Notes: generated by a model not told the origin, from the sequence alone. A stretch of DNA of 17,682 nucleotides from Nitrospinae bacterium RIFCSPLOWO2_12_FULL_45_22 (GCA_001803565.1 MHDQ01000043.1:1-17682); one strand, 5' to 3'. Shown: positions 1-11,978, counted from the first letter of the stretch. Numbers and translations: made by a program.

Positions 1-1005
1 CCCAGCACCACTACGCAGGCAATGGCCCTTTAATACTTTGCTGGCGCCATTAACGAGTACCGGAATGCCCCAGGCCCAGGACTCCAGCAGAGTAAGTGAT
101 AGACTCTCATATGGAGAGGGGATAATAACCAAGGAGGCGCGGCGTAGCCAGGTTTCCTTTTCCTTCTCTGATAGGTAACCAAGAACCATAAGGTCAGGAT
201 CAGAAGGCAGCTTAAGGACTTTTTGCCCTACCAAAACCAGCTTTAACTCCCCTCCACCCTTCTCTCTTTTATAACGGAGAAAGGAATCTACCAGGTCACC
301 ACACCCCTTCTTGACATCTACCCGGCCAATATATATCAGATATCCATCTTTCTGGGGTCCTGCGTGATTTAGGTTATCTGACGAACTATCTTCTGCAGGG
401 AGATCAATACCTACTCCGCAGACCTCATGGGGGATATGATTATTTTTGAAGTGGCTCTGGACAAAGGCCTGCTCTTCTAAAGAATTATAGATAATAGCCC
501 GGGGTAATTGAAATAGGGAGCGGAAAATCTTGAGATAGATCGGGGGCTCATCATGGGCGGTAGGCACTAAGATAGCTTTTTCTGGGACTAACGGTAAGCC
601 AAAATAAGTTGTGCAGTAGAGATAAGTAAAGAATACAAAATAATCGTAACGGTAGCGGTTGTCTTCAATAAAGTTAAATAACTGAGAAGAGAAGGGCCCC
701 TGGCGCTTCATCCATTCTATCTCTTCTGTAATAGTACCCTCGCCCTTCAATATCTTACGCGAAAACAGGTTGAACCATCTGATCCTTCTGGACCGGTCTA
801 CCAGGAAGCGCCACACAGTTACACCATTTATCTCCACTTTACCCGGGGGATAGAAGTTTTTCCAGGTAATATAGTCTTTGGCGCAGGTAGTGAGGATTTC
901 GATTTGCCAATGCCGGGCAAGGCGTTCTGCCAGAAGCCGACAGAGCCTCTCAGCACCACCACTGACCTCCGGGCCATAGCGCTGGACAACAAAAGCCATC
1001 CTCAT
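1..1005 (-). CDS. Family 4 (GT-B) glycosyltransferase, C-terminus cut by window edge
   Basis: I translated the open minus-strand frame by hand: 335 codons from ATG at 1005 to the window edge, without a stop. The start reads MRMAFVVQRYGPEVSGGAE, the usual beginning of a GT-B glycosyltransferase with its Gly-Gly donor-side loop. A GRVDVKKG stretch opens the second Rossmann domain. The hallmark EX7E motif is E300 and E308 within SPYESLSLTLLESWAWG, so only the last part of the C-terminal domain is missing. Such enzymes move a sugar from an NDP-sugar to a growing glycan in the cytoplasm. The ATG overlaps the TGA of the Wzt-like ATPase (ATGA, 1002-1005), so the two are probably translationally coupled, and the enzyme should help build the polysaccharide exported by its neighbours. 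The sugar substrate cannot be told. A second ATG at 999 is less likely as the start. Confidence 0.9.
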   Translation of the reverse strand, partial: MRMAFVVQRYGPEVSGGAERLCRLLAERLARHWQIEILTTCAKDYITWKNFYPPGKVEINGVTVWRFLVDRSRRIRWFNLFSRKILKGEGTITEEIEWMKRQGPFSSQLFNFIEDNRYRYDYFVFFTYLYCTTYFGLPLVPEKAILVPTAHDEPPIYLKIFRSLFQLPRAIIYNSLEEQAFVQSHFKNNHIPHEVCGVGIDLPAEDSSSDNLNHAGPQKDGYLIYIGRVDVKKGCGDLVDSFLRYKREKGGGELKLVLVGQKVLKLPSDPDLMVLGYLSEKEKETWLRRASLVIIPSPYESLSLTLLESWAWGIPVLVNGASKVLKGHCLRSGAG

Positions 1006-2294
1006 GGCGACATGACCCATTGGTGGGGGATGCGGCAGATGCCTAAGTCCTTCCGGTCAGCCCTGACCGCAAAGGAATAGAGGCGGGTCTGATAATCATA
1101 GTCATAACCATCCCGGGTATGGGCCGCTATATCCAACTGATAAGTCCCCTCAATAAGGTCTACTGATTTGATCAGTATCTTAAGCTGACCATCTTGGTTC
1201 AGATAAGGAATATCAATCCCCTCGATCTGGGTATTAGTACCGTAACAGCGTATCCCTTCGGGGGTATAGATACCGAATCCAAATACCGGGTCATTAACCG
1301 GGGAATTGACTTTATAATTGATCTCGATAGTCATGGGCTCTCCCCGGAAATAGACAAACTTCTCTCGGCCATTATAGTCCAGGAACCTCACACCGGTTAT
1401 CTCTATTTCCATACTACCCCAACGATTCAAGCGGTTCCGCTTCTGATCCGGACCTTCTTCGGCTGCCATAACAGAAGCAGGGTCACCAGATTCGGTAACG
1501 GCCTCTATGATTTCTGGGGGCTGTTGTGCCTGTCTGAATCGCTCTTCTTCCAGGGCCAGTACTTGCTGCCGGTACCGGTCTATAACCATCCGGGGAGTAC
1601 CTTGCTCTTTTATGATCCCTTCATCTAACCAGATAGCCTCATCACAGAGCCTCTCGATAGCAAACAAGTCGTGCGAGACGATAATGATGGTCTTTTTCTG
1701 GCGTTTAAATTCACCGATCCGGTCATTGCATTTACGGACAAAGGATTCATCACCCACCGCTAATATCTCATCTATCAGGAGTATATCGGGGTCTACATGG
1801 GTAGCGATGGAAAAGGCCAGGCGCATAAACATACCGGACGAATAAGTCCTTACTGGATAATCAATATACTCTTCTAGCTCAGAAAATCTTACAATCTCAT
1901 GATATTTTCTCTCAATCTCTCTCTTGGATAGGCCCAGGATAGTACCATTAAGATAGATATTTTCCCGGCCAGAAAAGATGGGATGAAAACCTATCCCTAG
2001 CTCTAGTAAGGACGATATCCTGCCATTTACCTGGATAGAACCGCTATCTGGCGATAGGATACCGCAGATCAGCTTGAGGAGGGTAGTTTTACCGGAGCCG
2101 TTCCGGCCAATAATACCCACCGTTGCCCCTTTTGATACTATAAGGTTTATATTGGTGAGTATCTCTTTTTTGCTATCGTCTCTGATGCTTTCTTTGCCTA
2201 AGCGAAATAGATGGGCCTTGAGGGTAGTGTAGTTGCTCAGCAGATTACGCCGCCGGAAGCTTTTTGAGACCTGCTCTAGTTTAACTGCTATCAT
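1002..2294 (-). CDS. wzt: Wzt-like ABC transporter ATPase for polysaccharide/O-antigen export
   Basis: This 430-residue protein has a complete nucleotide-binding domain: Walker A GRNGSGKT (63-70), signature YSSGMFMRLAFS (about 151-162), Walker B ILLIDE (171-176) and the switch His (H208). After a charged linker (about 245-290) comes a beta-rich C-terminal domain (about 290-430), as in Wzt proteins where it binds the finished glycan. The length matches two-domain Wzt rather than the shorter KpsT/TagH types. It should pair with the permease at 2602-3390 to move lipid-linked polysaccharide across the inner membrane. Unusually, 307 bp of repeat-filled DNA separates it from that permease, and I see no clear Shine-Dalgarno sequence before ATG 2294. 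It overlaps the downstream glycosyltransferase by 4 bp. Whether the glycan is O-antigen or another surface polysaccharide is open. Confidence 0.93.
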   Translation of the reverse strand: MIAVKLEQVSKSFRRRNLLSNYTTLKAHLFRLGKESIRDDSKKEILTNINLIVSKGATVGIIGRNGSGKTTLLKLICGILSPDSGSIQVNGRISSLLELGIGFHPIFSGRENIYLNGTILGLSKREIERKYHEIVRFSELEEYIDYPVRTYSSGMFMRLAFSIATHVDPDILLIDEILAVGDESFVRKCNDRIGEFKRQKKTIIIVSHDLFAIERLCDEAIWLDEGIIKEQGTPRMVIDRYRQQVLALEEERFRQAQQPPEIIEAVTESGDPASVMAAEEGPDQKRNRLNRWGSMEIEITGVRFLDYNGREKFVYFRGEPMTIEINYKVNSPVNDPVFGFGIYTPEGIRCYGTNTQIEGIDIPYLNQDGQLKILIKSVDLIEGTYQLDIAAHTRDGYDYDYQTRLYSFAVRADRKDLGICRIPHQWVMSP

Positions 2295-2383
2295 ATTAAA
2301 TTAATCAGGACACAGATTTTCGTAATTGTTTAGCCAAAATTAGGATTTTAGCCACGGATGAACACGGATAGACAGATTCGTTT

Positions 2384-2549
2384 CAATGCAAAATGCAAAA
2401 TTAGCAATTAGCATTTCAAAATCAAAGATCTGAGATTAAGAGATTTATAGAGACTAGGGGACTAAATATCTAATCTCTTTTTAGTCTCTTAATCTCCTAG
2501 TTTCTCTAATTGTTAATTGCTAATTTTAGATTGTTAATTTTGCAATGAA
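2384..2549. repeat. MITE-like palindromic element, copy A (between wzm and wzt)
   Basis: The left arm (2384-2419, containing GCAAAATTAGCAATTAGCA) is an imperfect inverted copy of the right arm (about 2508-2549, containing TTAATTGCTAATTTT). The middle holds further weakly inverted runs of AGTCTCTTAATCTC type. Further arms lie outside: 2352-2369 (CACGGATGAACACGGAT) against 2557-2573 (ATCTGTGTTCATCTGTG). A diverged second copy is at 14401-14557. There is no ORF. Together these fill the 307-bp gap 2295-2601. I infer a non-autonomous mobile or amplified palindromic element; no transposase or clear target-site duplication is visible. Confidence 0.75.
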
Positions 2550-2601
2550 GCCAATAATCTGTGTTCATCTGTGTACAGAATAAAATTCCTAAACTATTAA
2601 T

Positions 2602-3390
2602 TTAGATCTCCTCGGTCAAGGTCTTTCGGTAGCGATCAAAGACCAAATAGCCGATATAAAAAGTACTGATAGAATACAGGAAAACTATGATCATCTGATT
2701 GAACCCAGGAAATCGGTGATAAAAAAGGATATCCTGATACGCCATCATCATTACCCCGAGGGGATTCAAGAAGAGCAAAGGCCGCAGTTGCTCTGGGACT
2801 AAGCTGATCGGATAGATGATCGGGCATAGGAAAAACCATAGGGTCAAGAAGTTCCCCAGGATATGCTGCACATCCCGAAAAAAGACATTCAAGGCGGAGC
2901 TGACCAGTGCCAGGCCGAGGGTGAATAGGAACTGGAGGGTTATTAATAGCGGCAGAAATACCAGTGGTATACCCAGCTTGATCCCTAAGAAGAGGAGAAA
3001 GACAAAAAGTATCAGTAAGCCCAGGAGAAAATTGACCAGATTAGATATTACCGGAACAGTAGGCAGGACTTCAGGAGGAAAGGGGACTTTAGTAAGCAAG
3101 GTACTGCCTTGAATGATAGAATTGACCCCCTCAGCCATCGAGGAGGAGAACCATATCCAGGGTAACAACCCACAAAAGAGATAAGCGGTATAGTTCTCCA
3201 TCTCTATCTTCATATAGACTGAAAAGACCAGGGTATAAACTAACATCAGGAGCAACGGGTTGAGAAAAGACCAGAAAAAGCCGATAAACGACCCTCGGTA
3301 CCGGGCCCGTAGGGTCTGACTGACTAGGCTCTTTATCAGATAGCGGTACCTAACTAAATTTTTTATATTCGTCCAAATCCTCATTGGCAT
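2602..3390 (-). CDS. wzm: Wzm-like ABC-2 type permease for polysaccharide export
   Basis: This 262-residue membrane protein has about six hydrophobic segments and the ABC-2 transporter layout. A short cytoplasmic N-terminus (RYRYLIKSLVSQTLRARYRG) leads into helix 1 (FIGFFWSFLNPLLLMLVYTL). The central RDVQHILGNFLTLWFF and the Pro-rich LCPIIYPISLVPEQLRPLLF before the last helices are typical of Wzm/TagG-type exporters. The length is normal for the family. It would form a dimeric channel with the Wzt-like ATPase encoded next on the same strand. Start choice is uncertain: ATG 3390 and ATG 3384 (MPMR) are both possible and neither has a good Shine-Dalgarno sequence. Repeat-derived DNA lies on both sides of the gene, so its expression signals are not obvious. 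Confidence 0.92.
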   Translation of the reverse strand: MPMRIWTNIKNLVRYRYLIKSLVSQTLRARYRGSFIGFFWSFLNPLLLMLVYTLVFSVYMKIEMENYTAYLFCGLLPWIWFSSSMAEGVNSIIQGSTLLTKVPFPPEVLPTVPVISNLVNFLLGLLILFVFLLFLGIKLGIPLVFLPLLITLQFLFTLGLALVSSALNVFFRDVQHILGNFLTLWFFLCPIIYPISLVPEQLRPLLFLNPLGVMMMAYQDILFYHRFPGFNQMIIVFLYSISTFYIGYLVFDRYRKTLTEEI

Positions 3391-4044: not shown

Positions 4045-5355
4045 TCAATCTTCCAACTTGCTAAGGCCCAGGCTCTGGATGAAAGTCTCCAGGCGATCCA
4101 GCACCTGGCTCTCATCTAATTCCCTAAAGTCGGCAAAATTTCCCTCATAGATGGCAACGGGAAACCCTGCTTTTTGCAGTTCCAGTTTGGCCTCTGGCGA
4201 ACCAAGGGTGCAGAGGGGACAGCCCCGGTTGTAATGCATTACTACTCCTTCACACCGCCAATATTTAGCTAAGGCTATTATATCGAAAGCCTTCCGTTTG
4301 GGAGAAGAGAACGCTTGGCTGAGGGGACTCTCTAGATGCCACAGGGCAATAGCTCGCAGGGCATCTGCTCTATTGTTTAAGGGCATATTCCTCTCTTCTG
4401 GGGTCTTTGCTGGCAAAACCACCCCGTCTTCCCTGATTTCTATCTGGCCGCTGTTTATGCAATAAACCCAGATGCCTACAAATACAACCCCGTACTTCTC
4501 AAAATATCTGAACATCTTAAGAAAATTCCATGGTGGGGTAAGATCGGTCATGAGCCTGCATCTTTCGTCACCTACCGCGGCAATTTGATTCGCTATTCGA
4601 TCTTTTACTTCATCCCGGAGTGCTTCATAGAAAGCCACCGCCTCGGGTTGGTGCCTTATTCCTATGGCAATGGGCATAAGAGCTAATTCGCTTTTTAGAT
4701 CCAGTGGAGCGGGGATCGCCTGGTTAAGCAGGCATATCTCCCCCCAGAGCGCTTCACTTTTGAAAAAGTTACGGGAGGCTTCGATTAGCTTTTCGTCATC
4801 ATACTTCCTCCCGGTAATTTTTTCCATCCATTCAATGGAGTCATATAGCTGAGAGGCAAGGTATTCTATGACATCTTCAAACCTTACTCCGGGGGGTGTC
4901 ACTGGTTGTTCATAGACAAAAAGGGGTACATCATAATATTCCTTGCACACCTGGTACCATTTGCCATGGCCGGCATCACATAAATGTCTGGTCAGGAAAA
5001 AATCGGGTTTAGGAAAAGGACCGCCAAAATAGTAACGATCCAGGAACATAGACCCCCAATAGTTCCTCATATAGCCGCACATATCCCGGGCATATCCTCT
5101 TGCCTCGGCAGCCTCCATAGCCTCTAGTGAAAATGCTGGATCATATCCTATGCTGGCTCCATAGGGTTCGCCACTGAAATAGACAAAATCACCTAAGCCC
5201 GCTGGGAGGGCAAGACAACTAGCCCCTGAACCACTGACTAGCAGCCTGCCTTCTTCCCTGGCTGTTATTAGACTTTTATAATAATTTAACCGCAACTCTT
5301 TACCCTTCTGCCAACAGTCTAAAGGTTTTGATTTGTATTTGGATTGAATGCCCAT
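4045..5355 (-). CDS. Benzoyl-CoA reductase / 2-hydroxyacyl-CoA dehydratase family subunit (BcrB-like)
   Basis: This 436-residue protein is in the HgdB/BcrB family (Pfam 2-hydroxyglutaryl-CoA dehydratase, D-component). Visible marks are ARDMCGYMRNYWGSMFLDR (C93), PDFFLTRHLCDAGHGKWYQV (C126, K132), and a C-terminal RGCPLC (C379, C382) followed by the closing block EGNFADFRE...RLETFIQSL. Family members bind an [4Fe-4S] cluster and acyl-CoA in the cytoplasm. They either dehydrate 2-hydroxyacyl-CoA or reduce aromatic-ring CoA esters, receiving electrons from a separate ATPase. The length fits BcrB/BzdO better than the shorter C subunit. The start at 5355 is supported by AGGAGA seven bases upstream. 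The C-like partner ends 43 bp upstream on the same strand. The exact substrate is unknown; the closing block has EGN where the family usually has an acidic residue. Confidence 0.88.
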   Translation of the reverse strand: MGIQSKYKSKPLDCWQKGKELRLNYYKSLITAREEGRLLVSGSGASCLALPAGLGDFVYFSGEPYGASIGYDPAFSLEAMEAAEARGYARDMCGYMRNYWGSMFLDRYYFGGPFPKPDFFLTRHLCDAGHGKWYQVCKEYYDVPLFVYEQPVTPPGVRFEDVIEYLASQLYDSIEWMEKITGRKYDDEKLIEASRNFFKSEALWGEICLLNQAIPAPLDLKSELALMPIAIGIRHQPEAVAFYEALRDEVKDRIANQIAAVGDERCRLMTDLTPPWNFLKMFRYFEKYGVVFVGIWVYCINSGQIEIREDGVVLPAKTPEERNMPLNNRADALRAIALWHLESPLSQAFSSPKRKAFDIIALAKYWRCEGVVMHYNRGCPLCTLGSPEAKLELQKAGFPVAIYEGNFADFRELDESQVLDRLETFIQSLGLSKLED

Positions 5356-5398
5356 CTGTCTTTCTCCTAATAGTTTAGTATATCATTTAACTGGAGAT

Positions 5399-6517
5399 TC
5401 AGATCACTTCCATCGCCAGCATCTCCAGGAAGGCTTCTACCCGAGTCCGGAACTGCCCTATGGGTGTGGTAATATCAAACTCGAGGAACAGGCTTGGGAT
5501 ATTCCGCTCCTTGAGCAGGGCTATCAAGGGCGGGATATCGAACTCATGAGGGTCACAGAATTTTTGCTGGATTAAAATTACCCCCTGGACATGGTAGTCG
5601 TCTATTAGCTTAAAGATATAGGGCCACCTGCGCCGCTCAGGAAAATCTTTGGCTGGGCAAGGGGGCCGTTCTATATAGCGCTGGGCAATAGCAGCGAGCT
5701 TATCTTCTTCCGAAATCACTTCATTCCAAAAATATCTGGTGCCGGTACAGTGCTCATCCACCACTATGGTAGCCCCCAGGGATTCTACCATTCTTACAAA
5801 CTCCGTATCATCATCCTCACTACCAATAAGCATCAGGCGAATGCCCGGATCGCGTTCATTTTGTCTCTGGTCTATATTTTGCCAGATTTCTTGCAGAAGG
5901 ACATTATGTTCTGCTTTATCCATCACCTGGCTGGAAAGGACTATATCCATAGCCTCCGCACCAAGGATCGGGGGGATGGTGCGTTGCCTTAGCATATAGA
6001 GTTGTTTGGTTAGACAGCGATTTGTGTTGTAAATATCAATTGCCCTTTCCATATCTTCCTGAGAGATCTCCTTTGCTGTCCATTCTTCCAGACTCTTTTT
6101 AAATCGGTCTAATTCCTTTATCAAAAAAGGTTTCGCTCTACTACTCTGAATATTTGAGGGAGTGCTTATAAAATGGCTATAGGATAAAGGTATGTTTAAT
6201 TCCCAACTGGCAAAGGCATTACGCATATGGATACAACTCCGGGCCTTAGCAATACCATCCAGGTAATCATATTTCCCCAGTAACCCTTGCGCTAAACAAT
6301 CACGGCAATAAGGACAATACATGCTATAGATATGCCGGTCTGTGACATCTTGAGGCTGATGGCTGCCGAAGATTCTTACTGGTAGTGCACCCGCTGCATA
6401 AGCCAATTCTTCTGGCAAATAAGTACAAAAATATCCCAATACTCTCCCGCCGGTCCTGGCTTTCCACTCTCTGGCATAATCATGGCGTTTGTCAAATATT
6501 TCTCGAAACCTATCCAT
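5399..6517 (-). CDS. Benzoyl-CoA reductase C-like subunit (BcrC/BzdN type)
   Basis: From ATG 6517 this is 372 residues. Family marks are REWKARTGGRVLGYFCTYLP (C31), the Cys-rich YCPYCRDCLAQGLLGKYDYLD (C68, C71, C74), ARSCIHMRN (C95), QKFCDPHEFD near the C-terminus and LEFDITTPIGQFRTRVEAFL at the end. It should heterodimerise with the B-like subunit and share the acyl-CoA and Fe-S site. I prefer 6517 to the longer ATG at 6568 because AAGGAG (6525-6530) sits seven bases before 6517. The extra 17 codons run into a palindromic intergenic repeat that itself supplies the 6568 ATG. The genes for the electron-activating ATPase subunits (BcrA/BcrD or HgdC type) are not in this window. A 2-hydroxyacyl-CoA dehydratase role remains possible, though the sequence pattern looks closer to benzoyl-CoA reductase. 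Confidence 0.87.
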   Translation of the reverse strand: MDRFREIFDKRHDYAREWKARTGGRVLGYFCTYLPEELAYAAGALPVRIFGSHQPQDVTDRHIYSMYCPYCRDCLAQGLLGKYDYLDGIAKARSCIHMRNAFASWELNIPLSYSHFISTPSNIQSSRAKPFLIKELDRFKKSLEEWTAKEISQEDMERAIDIYNTNRCLTKQLYMLRQRTIPPILGAEAMDIVLSSQVMDKAEHNVLLQEIWQNIDQRQNERDPGIRLMLIGSEDDDTEFVRMVESLGATIVVDEHCTGTRYFWNEVISEEDKLAAIAQRYIERPPCPAKDFPERRRWPYIFKLIDDYHVQGVILIQQKFCDPHEFDIPPLIALLKERNIPSLFLEFDITTPIGQFRTRVEAFLEMLAMEVI

Positions 6518-6524
6518 CTTAGAA

Positions 6525-6530
6525 CTCCTT
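6525..6530 (-). promoter_or_regulatory. Ribosome binding site that fixes the BcrC-like start
   Basis: AAGGAG on the minus strand, seven bases before ATG 6517. No comparable site precedes the upstream in-frame ATG at 6568, which lies inside the palindromic repeat 6563-6638. Confidence 0.7.
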
Positions 6531-6562
6531 AGTAGAGCGTCTTCTAAATAACGTTGCAATGC

Positions 6563-6638
6563 TGTCATTTCGAGCGTAGCGAGAAATCTTAATGAATAAG
6601 GAATGTTACAAAGATCTCTCCCTTCGGTCGAGATGACA
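6563..6638. repeat. Palindromic intergenic repeat, inner-arm type, copy 1
   Basis: The arms TGTCATTTCGAGC (6563-6575) and GGTCGAGATGACA (6626-6638) are inverted copies matching at 11 of 13 positions. The inner part carries GCGTAGCGAGAAATCTT on one side and AAGATCTCTCCCTTCGG on the other. It belongs with the inner units of the repeats at 7517-7652 and 10555-10666, which share the TGTCATT(C/T)TGAGC / GCTCAG-GATGAC design. It sits between the SDR and the BcrC-like gene and lacks the outer GTGAACGGTTAC arms. Confidence 0.8.
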
Positions 6639-6687
6639 TGGAATTTACGAAACGATCCACTAGTTAATCAGTAATTAATTAGCGTAT

Positions 6688-7473
6688 TTAGCCTGGATAG
6701 CACAGCCCACCATTTATGCTCAGGGTCTGTCCTGTGATGGCATTTGAGACATCAGAGGCCAGAAATAATGCCGCTTCGGCAATATCATTTTGGGTTACAG
6801 GAAATGGCTGTTTCTCCAGGGCCTTCTTAAATACCTTAGCGACAGGATGGTCTGAACCCAGCATATCTCTTATTAACGGGCTATCGCTGATTACAGTGAG
6901 AGATATGGTATTAATTCGGATCTTCCACCGGGCAAACTCTTGCGCCAGGGTCTTAGTCATCAGGACCAATGCTGCCCCTGAAGCACCCACCATTGATTCA
7001 CCTGGCGTGGGCCATCTTCCAGCATCGGTTCCCAGCATTACTATCTTACCTGATTGTCTTTCAATCATGTAGTTAATCGCTGCCTTCACGCAGTAAGCCC
7101 TATTTAACCACTGAATCTTGGCCAGGTCGAAATAATCTTCCGGGTCCGTATCTCTAAAAAACCTTGCTTTTCCGAACAATGCCACGGCTCCACCAGAAAC
7201 TACCAGGATATCAATCTTCCCAAACCTTTCTATTCCCCTGTCAACCATCCGCTTTACTTCCGGGTAGTTATTTATATCTGCCTCTTCAAAAATAGCTTCC
7301 CGACCCAAACTGATAACCTCCTTTACCACATCCTGACCTAACTCGGGGGTTGAATCCTTCCCATGTAGAATAAGATTAGCCCCATTTTCTGCAAACTTCA
7401 AAGCAATTGCCTTGCCAATACCCGCACTAGACCCAGTCACTAATGCTACCTTACCCGCTAGGTTTGATGGCAT
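6688..7473 (-). CDS. Divergent short-chain dehydrogenase/reductase lacking the YxxxK pair
   Basis: This 261-residue protein has the SDR Rossmann fold: TGSSAGIG (13-20) for NAD(P), ADINNY (about 65-70), an IDILVVSGGA strand where NNAG is usual, and the C-terminal DVSNAITGQTLSINGGL block that ends classical SDRs. The active site is odd. Counting 13 residues on from the usual catalytic Ser position (here T149 in MLGTDAG), the expected Tyr is V162 and the expected Lys is G166, in MVGASGAALVLMTKTLAQE. Downstream landmarks (KTLAQEFARWKIRINTIS) align without gaps, so this is not an alignment slip. It may bind a nucleotide or CoA without classical redox chemistry, or use other residues. GGGAGGGG precedes ATG 7473. 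It lies between the crotonase and the reductase-like subunits, so a shared acyl-CoA pathway is likely. Confidence 0.88.
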   Translation of the reverse strand: MPSNLAGKVALVTGSSAGIGKAIALKFAENGANLILHGKDSTPELGQDVVKEVISLGREAIFEEADINNYPEVKRMVDRGIERFGKIDILVVSGGAVALFGKARFFRDTDPEDYFDLAKIQWLNRAYCVKAAINYMIERQSGKIVMLGTDAGRWPTPGESMVGASGAALVLMTKTLAQEFARWKIRINTISLTVISDSPLIRDMLGSDHPVAKVFKKALEKQPFPVTQNDIAEAALFLASDVSNAITGQTLSINGGLCYPG

Positions 7474-7516
7474 GTTTTATCCCCTCCCTAATTATGGACT
7501 AAGAAACTCTATTCAT

Positions 7517-7652
7517 GTAACTGTTCACCAGCTTCCCATCACCACGTCATTCTGAGCCAAAGCCCTGAGCAAAGCGAAGGGGCAAGCCAAGAATCTCAAT
7601 CCCCAGCAGACCCTTCGTTCCGCTCAGGATGACAGGTACAGTGAACGGTTAC
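7517..7652. repeat. Nested palindromic repeat, copy 2 (outer plus inner arms)
   Basis: The outer arms GTAACTGTTCAC (7517-7528) and GTGAACGGTTAC (7641-7652) are inverted, matching 11 of 12. The inner arms are GTCATTCTGAGC (7546-7557) and GCTCAGGATGAC (7622-7633). The interior repeats AGCGAAGGGGCAAGCC and CCCTTCG pieces. It occupies the gap between the crotonase and the SDR and shares both arm sets with 10555-10666. Confidence 0.85.
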
Positions 7653-7690
7653 CTATTCATTTCAGCTTTTATCCTCTTGGCTCTAGTGAC

Positions 7691-8479
7691 TTATTTAAAC
7701 TGAGGTTTACGCCTCTCCTTAAAAGCTGTCAATCCTTCACGGACATCTTCGCCTTTGTAATGGAGCCCTATCGCCCACTGTTCCAATTTTAATGCCTCAT
7801 GAATATTCATCTGCATACCCTGGTTCACTAATAACTTAGCAATACGGGATGCCTCACTGCTCTTGCTGACAATCTTGTTCACCATCTCAGTAGCCGCTTC
7901 TTCCAGCTTATCTGCCGGTACCACCATATTTACCAGGCCCCATTCCATAGCCTTCTGAGGGGTTATCCAATCACCTGTAAGGATAAGCTCTTTAGCCCTA
8001 TTTATACCGATCTTTCTGGGTAGGCGCTGCGTTCCACCACCACCAGCAATCAGGCCAAAATTGGTATGCTGATCACCAATCCGGGCCTCCTCGGAGGCAA
8101 TCAAGATATCACAGACTAAAGCCAGCTCTAAACCACCTGCTAAACATAAACCATTAATAGCGCCTATGACCGGTACCCGACTATTCTCTATACCGTTAAA
8201 GACCCGTTCCCAGGTCCGGCCATACTCCGCAAATATCCTAGGATCACCGCCACCCTCCATAAGCTGTTTTACGAAGGATAAATCCGCACCCGCGGAAAAG
8301 GCCTTGCCCTTACCGGTTATTACTAATGCCTTTATACTGTAGTCCCGCTCCAGATCGTCCCAGGCCTGACCTATCTCCTGGATAATTTCTAGATTCAATG
8401 GGTTCATTAACTCTGGACGATTGAGATAGATCCAGGCCCCAGGCCCCCGCTTCTCATAAATAATGTTCTTGAAGTCCAT
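7691..8479 (-). CDS. Enoyl-CoA hydratase/isomerase (crotonase) family protein
   Basis: This 262-residue protein is full length for a crotonase. The first oxyanion-hole strand is GKAFSAGADLSFV (59-70). The second is GLCLAGGLELALVCDIL (110-126), which keeps Glu118, the counterpart of Glu144 in rat enoyl-CoA hydratase. Twenty residues later, where rat hydratase has Glu164, this protein has His138 in IGDQHTNFGLIAGGGGTQRL. Family members act on CoA thioesters in the cytoplasm by hydration, isomerisation, ring hydrolysis or C-C bond cleavage. In anaerobic aromatic catabolism crotonases hydrate the dienoyl-CoA made by benzoyl-CoA reductase, and the neighbours fit such a role, but this is inference. 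AAGGAGGTT lies six bases before ATG 8479. It is the first gene of the acyl-CoA operon. Confidence 0.92.
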   Translation of the reverse strand: MDFKNIIYEKRGPGAWIYLNRPELMNPLNLEIIQEIGQAWDDLERDYSIKALVITGKGKAFSAGADLSFVKQLMEGGGDPRIFAEYGRTWERVFNGIENSRVPVIGAINGLCLAGGLELALVCDILIASEEARIGDQHTNFGLIAGGGGTQRLPRKIGINRAKELILTGDWITPQKAMEWGLVNMVVPADKLEEAATEMVNKIVSKSSEASRIAKLLVNQGMQMNIHEALKLEQWAIGLHYKGEDVREGLTAFKERRKPQFK

Positions 8480-9114: not shown

Positions 9115-10518
9115 TTACTTGACCTCCTGGTATTTGGTACGTTTAGCCCAACCCCAGGGATCAAACCCACCCCGCTTATCCCACATCTCTTGGTGTTCCT
9201 TCATCTTTTTTTTCAGGTTTTCAGGCACAGTCTTGACGCCTTGCCGGTCTTTGGCCTTCTTCGCTTCATAAATATGTGGATAAGGAGGAAAATGCTCTGC
9301 ACTGGTCACCGGCCGATAATTAGGCGCTTTGCGCCAGAAATACTCCTTCTGGAGCTGCGGTATGGAGAAGAATCCTGGGCCATAAGTCGGATCATCTGTC
9401 ACTCTTTTGCCAAACTTAACATCACCGTACCAGAGATAGACTCTGAAGTCCCGGTAAAGATCAACAATCTGGGCTACTGAACGGGGATAGCCGCCCCCGA
9501 CATTACCACCTGGGTCCACCCGGTCGTATTTATAATCGCATATCCGATATAGATTTCCCTGACGGTCATACTGTTCGAATCGGATGAAATACTTGGTATG
9601 CTTTTCAATCCACCAGAGCATATGGCCCAGATAGTAATTGGGATCATACTTATGGACCATCTTGACTACGTAGCACTCTATACAACCATCTTTACGGTAG
9701 GGATTCTGCTCTACACCCAAGACCCCGGGCAGCAGGTCTTTAAGATTATCTACAATACTCTTGGGCTCGCCCATCATACCGCCTTTGACTCCAGCGCTAT
9801 CACATATTACATCTTCACCCACGATCCAGTAATCATACTCCCAGGGCTGGCGCTCACCATTGTCATCGTTACTGAAGGGATAGCCCAGGGAATCATCCTG
9901 CCGGTCACCACCGGCCGAGCGTCTAACCCGCCTCAGGGCTGGGACCCAGGCATAGCGGTCCGGGTCTTTCCATTTCTTGGGGGTATTATTATATTTGACC
10001 ATCAACTGAGAAAAACCCCGCAGCTCGGGCGGGTTATCCAGCAAAGAAAAATAGCTCAGGAAGACGTCATTGGTGCCTACCTTGCCTGACCGATCATAAT
10101 TTACTACATCGTCATAATCATCCCAGGGGCTGAGCCGCCTGACATAGAGATTCCTGCCGGTGACCAATCCCCTTTTATTGATTAAGGGGGTATACAATAC
10201 CAGGTCAACATATTTGCCGCCCCAGAAGAGAAAATCACTGAAGAAATATAATTGTTCGCCCGTATAGGGGACATCTTTTCTGGGCCAGGTGGGTTTGTAG
10301 GGGAAGGGGCCTTTGGGTACCCAGGGATAGTCTGGGTCACGTTCCGTGTTGGAAGGTATTGGTTCGGGATATTCTACCCAGCCTTCAATGGTTGAAGGTG
10401 CTGGGGCATATTTATCCTTCGCGGTTTCTTCTGCCCAGCTTAAATTTGTTATACTGCAGATCCCGCATAATAACATCACCACTACCGACAGCGCTAGAAC
10501 TTTTAGCCCTCTTATCAT
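9115..10518 (-). CDS. Secreted DUF1329-type protein
   Basis: From ATG 10518 this is 467 residues with a signal peptide (MIRGLKVLALSVVVMLLCG) and a likely cut after A29 (LSWA|EET). The mature protein is rich in Tyr, Trp, Pro and Asp. The family mark is DRYAWVPALRRVRRSAGGDR (RRVRR at 196-200) followed by DDSLGYPFSNDD, as in DUF1329 proteins, which are thought to adopt a LolA/LolB-like outer-membrane lipoprotein-sorting fold. The periplasm or outer membrane is the likely location, and the ligand is unknown. Cysteines at CIECY in the middle could form a disulphide. I chose 10518 over the in-frame GTG at 10533 because GGAGGGA (10525-10531) sits seven bases before the ATG and overlaps the GTG. It lies alone between repeat-rich gaps and shows no certain partner gene. 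Confidence 0.85.
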   Translation of the reverse strand: MIRGLKVLALSVVVMLLCGICSITNLSWAEETAKDKYAPAPSTIEGWVEYPEPIPSNTERDPDYPWVPKGPFPYKPTWPRKDVPYTGEQLYFFSDFLFWGGKYVDLVLYTPLINKRGLVTGRNLYVRRLSPWDDYDDVVNYDRSGKVGTNDVFLSYFSLLDNPPELRGFSQLMVKYNNTPKKWKDPDRYAWVPALRRVRRSAGGDRQDDSLGYPFSNDDNGERQPWEYDYWIVGEDVICDSAGVKGGMMGEPKSIVDNLKDLLPGVLGVEQNPYRKDGCIECYVVKMVHKYDPNYYLGHMLWWIEKHTKYFIRFEQYDRQGNLYRICDYKYDRVDPGGNVGGGYPRSVAQIVDLYRDFRVYLWYGDVKFGKRVTDDPTYGPGFFSIPQLQKEYFWRKAPNYRPVTSAEHFPPYPHIYEAKKAKDRQGVKTVPENLKKKMKEHQEMWDKRGGFDPWGWAKRTKYQEVK

Positions 10519-10524
10519 AACCAG

Positions 10525-10531
10525 TCCCTCC
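10525..10531 (-). promoter_or_regulatory. Ribosome binding site that fixes the DUF1329 start
   Basis: GGAGGGA on the minus strand, seven bases before ATG 10518. An alternative GTG start at 10533 would overlap this site, so the shorter protein is preferred. Confidence 0.7.
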
Positions 10532-10554
10532 ACTAGGAAAAAGAGTTAACCACT

Positions 10555-10666
10555 GTAACCGTTCACCCACTTATCCACTGAAGGGTCATTCTGAGCCAAA
10601 GCGAAGAATCTCTTTCGCTGGAGACCCTTCGCTACGCTCAGGGTGACAGTCTCAGTGAACGGTTAC
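10555..10666. repeat. Nested palindromic repeat, copy 3 (outer plus inner arms)
   Basis: The outer arms GTAACCGTTCAC (10555-10566) and GTGAACGGTTAC (10655-10666) are a perfect 12-bp inverted pair. The inner arms are GTCATTCTGAGC (10585-10596) and GCTCAGGGTGAC (10636-10647). It lies between glgC and the DUF1329 gene. It is the cleanest copy of the family and defines both arm sets. No T-tract is present, so it is not a standard terminator. Confidence 0.87.
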
Positions 10667-10721: not shown

Positions 10722-11978
10722 TTATTTAACCCCTACTAAGTTGGATAAGAAGGGTGCATATTTTGGCAAAAGGGCATCTGAAGAGACATTTTCTCCCCGA
10801 GGAATAACAACAATGCCTGTCTCACTGACCAGGAACCGTTCTCTATCCCGCACTGGATCATAGCCAATATCTATGCCTGCGGGGATAGTGGCGAATTTGT
10901 CAATAATAGCGCGCCGAACTCTGGCCCCGGCCCCCATCCTTACTCCCTCCAGGATGATAGATTCCCGCACCGTGGCATTGGCATCAATTTGTACCTCAGG
11001 AGATAGGATAGAGTTCTCTACTACCGCGCCCCGGATAAGGCATCCCGGGGAAATAATAGAGTTAACGATAGTAGCTACCTGGGGTACTCCATCAGTTGAG
11101 GGGACAACCCTGGCGGGCGAGAATTGTCCCTGATAAGTCCTGATAGGCCATCGGGCATTATAAAGGTTTAGAGGGGAATGGGGAAAGAGCAAGTCCATCT
11201 GGGCCTCAAAATATGCCTCTATAGTCCCTACATCCCGCCAGTATAAAGGCTTTCCACTGGTTTTGTCTACAAAGGGATAGGCATATGCCTGACCTTTACC
11301 AATCATATTTGGTATTATGTCCTTACCAAAATCATGCGGGGTATTCCGAGAACTATCTTCCTCCAACTGTTTATACAGAGTTTGCCGGTTAAAGATATAT
11401 ACCCCCATAGAGGCAAAAGGCCTTCCTGAGACAAAGGGGGGCTTTTCCCGGAAGCCAATAATCCGACCGTCTCTATCTGTCTCTATAATACCGAATTGAT
11501 GGGCCTGGTTGCCATTGACCGGTATAGCCCCCACGGTTAATTCTGCCCCCCTGGCCCTATGGAAATGGAGCATATCTCTATAATCCATGGCATAGACATG
11601 ATCACCGGAAAGGATCAGGACTTCCTCGGGCTTAATCTTATCTATAAAATAGATATTCTGATAAACCGCATCGGCTGTACCCCGGTACCAATCCTCATGG
11701 ACCCGCTTCTGGGGAGGGAGGGGAATAATGAAGTCACCTACTTCTTCCGAGAAAATGTTCCAGCCCATCCGCAGGTGTCGCTCCAGGGAGGCAGATTTAT
11801 ATTGGGTCAGGACGGCAATCTTTCTCAACCCTGAATTGATACAGTTGCTCAGGGTGAAATCTATTAGCCGATAGATGCCAGCAAAAGGGACGGCTGGCTT
11901 AGCCCGATCTCTGGTCAAAGGGGAGAGCCTTTCCCCTTTTCCTCCACACAATATGAGGGCCACTACATCCTCCATCAT
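10722..11978 (-). CDS. glgC: Glucose-1-phosphate adenylyltransferase (ADP-glucose pyrophosphorylase)
   Basis: This 418-residue enzyme has normal length for bacterial GlgC and makes ADP-glucose from ATP and glucose-1-phosphate for glycogen synthesis. The N-terminal nucleotidyltransferase domain has CGGKGERLSPLT (about 11-22), RAKPAVPFAGIYRLIDF and LSNCINSGL, then SGDHVYAMDY, GFREKPPF, SMGVYIFN and YWRDVGTIEAYFEAQMDL. The C-terminus is a left-handed beta-helix (about 300-400, seen as ILSPEVQ.., VRESIILEGVRMGAGARVRRAI). The start at 11978 is backed by GGAGGTGA six bases upstream. It is the last gene of a same-strand set with dodecin and the CBS protein; the 99-bp gap to the CBS gene has no obvious terminator. 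Allosteric control by sugar phosphates is usual for the family, but the effector cannot be read here. Confidence 0.97.
   Translation of the reverse strand: MMEDVVALILCGGKGERLSPLTRDRAKPAVPFAGIYRLIDFTLSNCINSGLRKIAVLTQYKSASLERHLRMGWNIFSEEVGDFIIPLPPQKRVHEDWYRGTADAVYQNIYFIDKIKPEEVLILSGDHVYAMDYRDMLHFHRARGAELTVGAIPVNGNQAHQFGIIETDRDGRIIGFREKPPFVSGRPFASMGVYIFNRQTLYKQLEEDSSRNTPHDFGKDIIPNMIGKGQAYAYPFVDKTSGKPLYWRDVGTIEAYFEAQMDLLFPHSPLNLYNARWPIRTYQGQFSPARVVPSTDGVPQVATIVNSIISPGCLIRGAVVENSILSPEVQIDANATVRESIILEGVRMGAGARVRRAIIDKFATIPAGIDIGYDPVRDRERFLVSETGIVVIPRGENVSSDALLPKYAPFLSNLVGVK

Follow-up and report, generated by a model that had tools for sequence, protein, structure and literature searches.

A BZD-type subunit pair with an altered substrate pocket and no local ATPase in a Nitrospinae genome

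Four genes without an adjoining ATPase

The stretch of DNA analysed here (henceforth the window) has a length of 17,682 bp, coincides exactly with one contig (C43) of the genome of Nitrospinae bacterium RIFCSPLOWO2_12_FULL_45_22 (GCA_001803565.1, MHDQ01000043.1:1-17682), and carries four intact open reading frames (ORFs), all on the minus strand and arranged as crotonase, short-chain dehydrogenase/reductase (SDR), N, O. This analysis concerns N and O, which are related to the subunits of class I benzoyl-CoA reductases. O (4045-5355) encodes a BzdO-like catalytic [4Fe-4S] subunit of 436 aa with a remodelled substrate pocket, and N (5399-6517, in an ORF that extends to 6568) encodes a BzdN-like protein that, as judged from its cysteines, is probably an electron-storage subunit with a double-cubane [8Fe-9S] cluster. 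Translation of N probably starts at Met18 (position 6517) rather than at the listed ATG (6568) because an AGGAG box lies just 5' of the former ATG and the latter lies inside a fragment of an intergenic repeat. This fragment (6562-6582) overlaps the listed start of N; the repeat copies in the window are of the interspersed, palindromic type, with one copy between the crotonase and SDR genes (7546-7652) and a related one at 10585-10666. Contexts for ribosome binding are good for all four ORFs.

Class I benzoyl-CoA reductases are oxygen-sensitive enzymes that serve bacteria in opening aromatic rings. They operate at redox potentials beyond the range usual in biology, and their ATPase is normally encoded together with them. 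A preliminary description of this DNA had proposed a benzoyl-CoA-reductase-like substrate-binding pair lacking an ATPase and placed beside a crotonase and an SDR, and this holds: Pfam matches revealed no BcrAD/BadFG (BcrAD_BadFG) ATPase anywhere on the 17,682-bp contig. Because the window is the whole contig and both end together, an ATPase hidden beyond the window edge can be rejected for this contig. Both flanks of the four-gene cluster are unrelated to it and encode an ABC-2 transporter permease and a Wzt-like ATPase (1002-3390) on one side and a GlgC-like protein, recognised by eye (10722-11978), on the other. Given these flanks and the identity of contig and window, the lack of the ATPase is real for this locus.

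Family placement, cluster ligands and substrate pocket

Both subunits are assigned to the Pfam HGD-D model (280 and 162 bits). Their best matches in the PDB are BzdO (364 bits) and BzdN (420 bits) from Aromatoleum for O and N, respectively, and the next matches, a dehydratase and MbdON, have far lower scores. In maximum-likelihood trees built from the paralogues in this genome together with BzdNO, MbdON, and HadBC, window N and window O each fall inside the BZD clade that holds BzdN or BzdO (support 100/100); within this clade the position of O is weakly supported (87/73). The AlphaFold model of window O (pLDDT 92.8) superimposes on BzdO (PDB 8s02) with a Z score of 58.0 and a root-mean-square deviation of 1.4 Å over 430 residues at 41% identity, in comparison with Z scores of about 44 for HadB and about 41 for MbdO. 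The trees and the fold thus assign the pair to the BZD-type class I benzoyl-CoA reductases, apart from the 2-hydroxyacyl-CoA dehydratases; they place it outside the known dehydratases and replace the earlier BadD/BadE-like (BcrB/C-like) label with BzdN/BzdO-like. Both subunits score below the NCBIfam equivalog cut-offs (TIGR03190/TIGR03191; 437.7 of 453.8 and 391.5 of 448.6 bits). No orthologues of the remodelled O were found in 386 sampled genomes, in which all strong matches outside its own genome are canonical BzdO sequences adjoining ATPases. The counter-case named in the preliminary description, an ATPase gene just outside a homologous cluster in close relatives together with firm placement among 2-hydroxyglutaryl-CoA dehydratases, did not arise: homologous BZD operons in other phyla have the ATPases directly downstream, but none of them is orthologous to the remodelled pair.

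Functional residues were taken from the BzdNO structure (PMC11971306) and their numbering was checked residue by residue. Window N keeps six cysteines at BzdN positions 36, 73, 100, 263, 293, and 327, which are common to BzdN and nearly all N paralogues, whereas MbdN and HadC lack the full set; the surrounding shell (Arg53/267/290, His330, Ser239, and Gln324) is kept as well. From this conservation we infer that the six cysteines would be the ligands of an [8Fe-9S] cluster. In window O, Cys93, Cys126, and Cys379 correspond to BzdO Cys95, Cys128, and Cys380, the three catalytic [4Fe-4S] ligands. Glu65 and Tyr97 (BzdO numbering) are also retained, and the equivalent of His131 is present behind a one-residue insertion between Cys128 and His131. 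We rejected a double cubane in window O as well: by ungapped counting and by profile alignment its additional cysteines near the cluster region (47, 299, and 382) miss the N ligand positions, and in the profile alignment Ser stands opposite N Cys36, while positions 263 and 293 have no Cys counterpart in O.

Around these conserved ligands the pocket has been rebuilt. Across more than 60 BzdO genes that adjoin BzdP/Q in BzdN-O-P-Q operons, taken from archaea, Chloroflexota, Planctomycetota, Bacillota, Aminicenantes, Gemmatimonadota, and others, the canonical BzdO pattern hardly varies; it comprises Trp46, Glu65, Cys95, Tyr97, Cys128, His131, Gln274, Tyr298, Leu302, and Cys380-Glu-Gly-Leu. At the same positions window O has Ala, Glu, Cys, Tyr, Cys, His, Thr, Val, Asn, and Cys-Pro-Leu-Cys, which amounts to seven changes (W46A, Q274T, Y298V, L302N, E381P, G382L, and L383C). 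In BzdO, Trp46 takes up the room next to the benzoyl ring, and the ligands of the thioester oxygen are Gln274 and Tyr298 (PMC11971306); with all three lost, window O could not hold benzoyl-CoA in the way that BzdO does. With changes at seven positions where true BzdO sequences hardly vary, a plain benzoyl-CoA role for the pair appears unlikely, and the change of pocket residues with retention of cluster ligands favours an altered substrate over decay. Since Trp46 is replaced by Ala and the ligands of the thioester oxygen are gone, our guess is that the substrate may be bulkier than benzoyl-CoA or differently held.

We also considered those O genes of the BZD clade that have enough downstream sequence. 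An ATPase is adjacent to 66 of the 67 genes with canonical pockets versus five of the 16 with diverged pockets (with:without, 66:1 and 5:11), and among these rows, which are related rather than phylogenetically independent, pocket divergence accompanies loss of the adjacent ATPase. Owing to this relatedness, the value of a Fisher test on the rows is not to be taken as a probability. The sole canonical O gene without an ATPase is close to the end of its contig (811 bp), and among the five diverged genes with an ATPase, L123 is a frame-broken canonical gene. The 11 diverged O genes without an ATPase come from the genome of the window (six) and from Chloroflexota (five). Separately, two metagenome-assembled genomes (MAGs) of Chloroflexota contain N-O-O-P-Q operons with two diverged O genes (L091 and L126), and the first O of L091 has Asp at the position of the Cys95 ligand.

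Paralogues, activases and neighbouring genes

The genome (3.67 Mb, 85% complete) contains 67 HGD-D matches, of which about 32 are of the N type and 35 of the O type, gene fragments included. A first-look count of 68 was the highest among 387 sampled genomes; the only other member of the same order in that sample has 31, and the next highest count among the genomes listed is 23. The search for BadF/BcrA/HgdC-type ATPases proposed in the preliminary description yielded ten activase matches, some of them halves or double domains, which leaves about nine activases, and all have both cluster-cysteine motifs. Two intact stand-alone activases, on C249 and C51, are unlinked to any HGD-D gene. An activase pair on C81 adjoins three N and two O genes, a second pair, split across C178 and C153, adjoins one N-O unit, and a single activase on C15 lies between two O genes; a protein of 1423 aa with two activase domains (C225, L081, 1-4269) is distant from all other activases. 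None of the activases falls in the BzdP or BzdQ clade, and those on C81 and C178/C153 are sisters of these clades. Among the 41 HGD-D stretches that we examined, 37 have no activase, and 17 of these have more than 2 kb of sequence on both sides. Class III CoA-transferases adjoin several HGD-D genes of the genome. In the suggested check for an aryl-CoA ligase, no benzoate-CoA ligase was found above cut-off in this 85%-complete genome. A ring-opening hydrolase was likewise not found above cut-off.

Several of the paralogous loci have features of their own. C178 (L061) and C153 (L073) probably carry an O-N-activase-activase operon split over two contigs. We only infer this join: the activase halves are complementary, but the contig ends lack an overlap of at least 10 bp. 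On either side of this operon lie two BzdO-like genes that stand alone, lacking an N partner, and have nearly canonical pockets; conversely, the BzdN-like gene on C216 (L059) is a lone one. On C77 (L056, 432-5455) a BZD-clade N/O pair is followed by two ATPases of the Get3/ArsA fold (BagB/BagA-like), which are possibly alternative energisers or unrelated to the pair, and on C231 an N/O pair has genes divergent from it (L060, 1-3394) for an Mrp-type Fe-S carrier ATPase and two (de)carboxylases that are UbiD-like.

In the O gene of this last pair and in two other O paralogues, an in-frame TGA stands precisely where the codon for Cys95 would be (L060 on C231, 5490-5492; L047 on C53, 6918-6920; L048 on C148, 4010-4012), and the same-order genome has an N gene (L181, G001:C14) with one at the codon of BzdN Cys100. 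The genome of the window has matches above cut-off for both selB and tRNA-Sec, and the same-order genome has selB, so these codons at Fe-S ligand positions probably specify selenocysteine cluster ligands. When the three O genes were folded in search of SECIS elements, each showed a hairpin that begins about 13 nt past its TGA codon, but only one of the hairpins folds better than most shuffled sequences (z scores of -2.2, -0.8, and 0.0). We found no report of selenocysteine as a cluster ligand in the benzoyl-CoA reductase/2-hydroxyacyl-CoA dehydratase (BCR/HAD) family in the openly licensed literature searched.

The two remaining genes of the cluster, on the same strand as N and O, encode proteins with altered catalytic residues. 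The crotonase-family protein (7691-8479) keeps the first catalytic Glu and has His in place of the second (Glu164 in rat enoyl-CoA hydratase numbering), a substitution seen in none of the other 70 aligned crotonases, which comprise relatives and the rat reference. The SDR-like protein (6688-7473) has Thr-Val-Gly in place of Ser-Tyr-Lys, so that the catalytic Tyr is Val and the catalytic Lys is Gly; the full triad is present in 28 of 30 aligned SDR sequences, reference included. The analogy to BadK and BadH drawn earlier from the gene order is therefore not borne out: we rejected a BadH role for the SDR, which lacks the triad and scores 114.4 bits against the BadH model TIGR03206 (cut-off 431.2), and a BadK role for the crotonase on the basis of the Glu164 replacement, with an enoyl-CoA-hydratase-type crotonase as a proxy for BadK. 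Both proteins may be specialised or structural. Elsewhere in the genome another SDR adjoining an N/O pair (L042 on C171, 2902-3726) has Asp replacing the catalytic Tyr, and in the window a secreted LolA-like/DUF1329-like protein is encoded on the same strand about 640 bp upstream of the cluster (9115-10533).

Energisation, alternatives and known systems

On balance we consider it probable that N and O form a catalytic heterodimer of BZD type within the BCR/HAD family of radical enzymes, and that this heterodimer acts on a CoA thioester other than benzoyl-CoA and is energised in trans. The preliminary description had raised an activator shared in trans, and with no local ATPase and intact activases elsewhere in the genome this is now the leading reading. 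An activase encoded elsewhere would hydrolyse ATP to raise the low-potential electrons of reduced ferredoxin, and the foremost candidates would be the stand-alone activases on C249 and C51, followed by the paired ones on C81 and C178/C153. Electrons would be stored on the double cubane of N, for which the residues are in place, and then be passed to the cluster of O, where three Cys and the Glu/His pair could hold an aqua-[4Fe-4S] catalytic cluster. That cluster would reduce the thioester or strip a leaving group from it, and the crotonase and SDR would presumably act on the product with altered chemistry.

Several points weigh against energisation in trans on a non-benzoyl substrate. At 85% completeness, the genome might simply not include a true BzdPQ. 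The seven pocket changes could also mean relaxed selection, the assignment of a substrate is a guess, and the broken catalytic residues of the crotonase and SDR make a simple pathway story harder.

Other explanations fit these data less well, the main ones being a dehydratase-like use and an activase-free oxidative use. It is unlikely that the pair is a functional 2-hydroxyacyl-CoA dehydratase: recycling of a single activated electron would explain why few activases suffice, and a handful of activases against dozens of dimers suits catalytic rather than stoichiometric use of ATP. Class III CoA-transferases are partners of known 2-hydroxyacyl-CoA dehydratases, and their presence beside several HGD-D genes points the same way; however, the window has none, the pair clusters with BzdN/BzdO rather than HadBC, and N keeps double-cubane cysteines that HadC lacks. 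We think it improbable that the pair is an ordinary BZD-type benzoyl-CoA reductase isoenzyme: clade, fold, cluster ligands, and the Glu65/His131 pair would all suit one, but seven residues contacting the benzoyl group or the thioester have changed, both subunits fall short of the equivalog cut-offs, and the ligase and hydrolase of such a pathway did not appear above cut-off in the genome. An activase-free pair, working in the oxidative direction or on a higher-potential reaction such as dehydrogenating or re-aromatising a dienoyl-CoA, seems to us just as doubtful: without its ATPase, isolated BzdNO is limited to the reverse reaction, in which dienoyl-CoA is rearomatised in a viologen-dependent manner (PMC11971306), and pairs without an ATPase carry diverged pockets, yet activases are present in this genome and would be available, and the window shows no gene for an acceptor or partner. 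That the pair is a functionless duplicate in decay, which the joint loss of catalytic residues in the O pocket, SDR, and crotonase might suggest, is very improbable given intact ORFs with good ribosome-binding contexts, every cluster cysteine kept in both subunits, and long conserved blocks in N, which is 65% identical to its nearest paralogue.

More broadly, and only tentatively, the trans-energised pair may be one component of a plug-in system in which dozens of substrate-specialised double-cubane/[4Fe-4S] dimers, some of them selenocysteine-ligated, share a few unlinked ATP-driven activases, with the window pair serving a substrate chemistry not yet described and possibly working oxidatively without an activase. 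BZD-like paralogues and unlinked activators as such are already known; in the openly licensed literature searched we did not find a description of orphan BZD pairs with rebuilt pockets or of an expansion at such scale. Dimers uncoupled from the ATPase, rebuilt pockets, and many paralogues suggest that the chemistry of this family extends beyond benzoyl-CoA. BzdNO can be produced in Escherichia coli, so natural pocket variants such as the window pair are directly testable and could extend the enzymatic Birch reduction.

Known systems resemble the window pair in different respects. The double-cubane cluster protein DCCP (PDB 6eno, 7yyl) has the [8Fe-9S] cluster type that the cysteines of window N match, although it carries the double cubane in both subunits and window O has no matching cysteines. 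HadBC, the (R)-2-hydroxyisocaproyl-CoA dehydratase (PDB 3o3m), is alike in fold and in the [4Fe-4S] ligation of O and HadB but belongs to a separate clade with about 22% identity, and HadC has no cysteine at BzdN position 36 or 263. The 3-methylbenzoyl-CoA reductase MbdONPQ of Thauera chlorobenzoica (PDB 9g87, 9gai) is a member of the same superfamily with a two-subunit catalytic core (Z about 40.6); it differs in forming a separate clade, in having only three of the six double-cubane cysteines in MbdN, and in having been solved in complex with its ATPase subunits. Orphan N/O pairs in MAGs of Dehalococcoidia and other Chloroflexota (L092, L105, L128, L150, and L161) likewise have diverged pockets and no adjacent ATPase, whereas their substitutions are different and they are not orthologous to the window pair. 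Finally, in comparison with BzdNO of Aromatoleum sp. CIB (PDB 8s02; PMC11971306), the window pair has no adjoining BzdPQ, seven pocket changes, the one-residue Cys128-His131 insertion, and sub-equivalog scores, whereas it shares with BzdNO the fold, the clade, the double-cubane cysteines of N, and the [4Fe-4S] ligands and Glu65/His131 of O.

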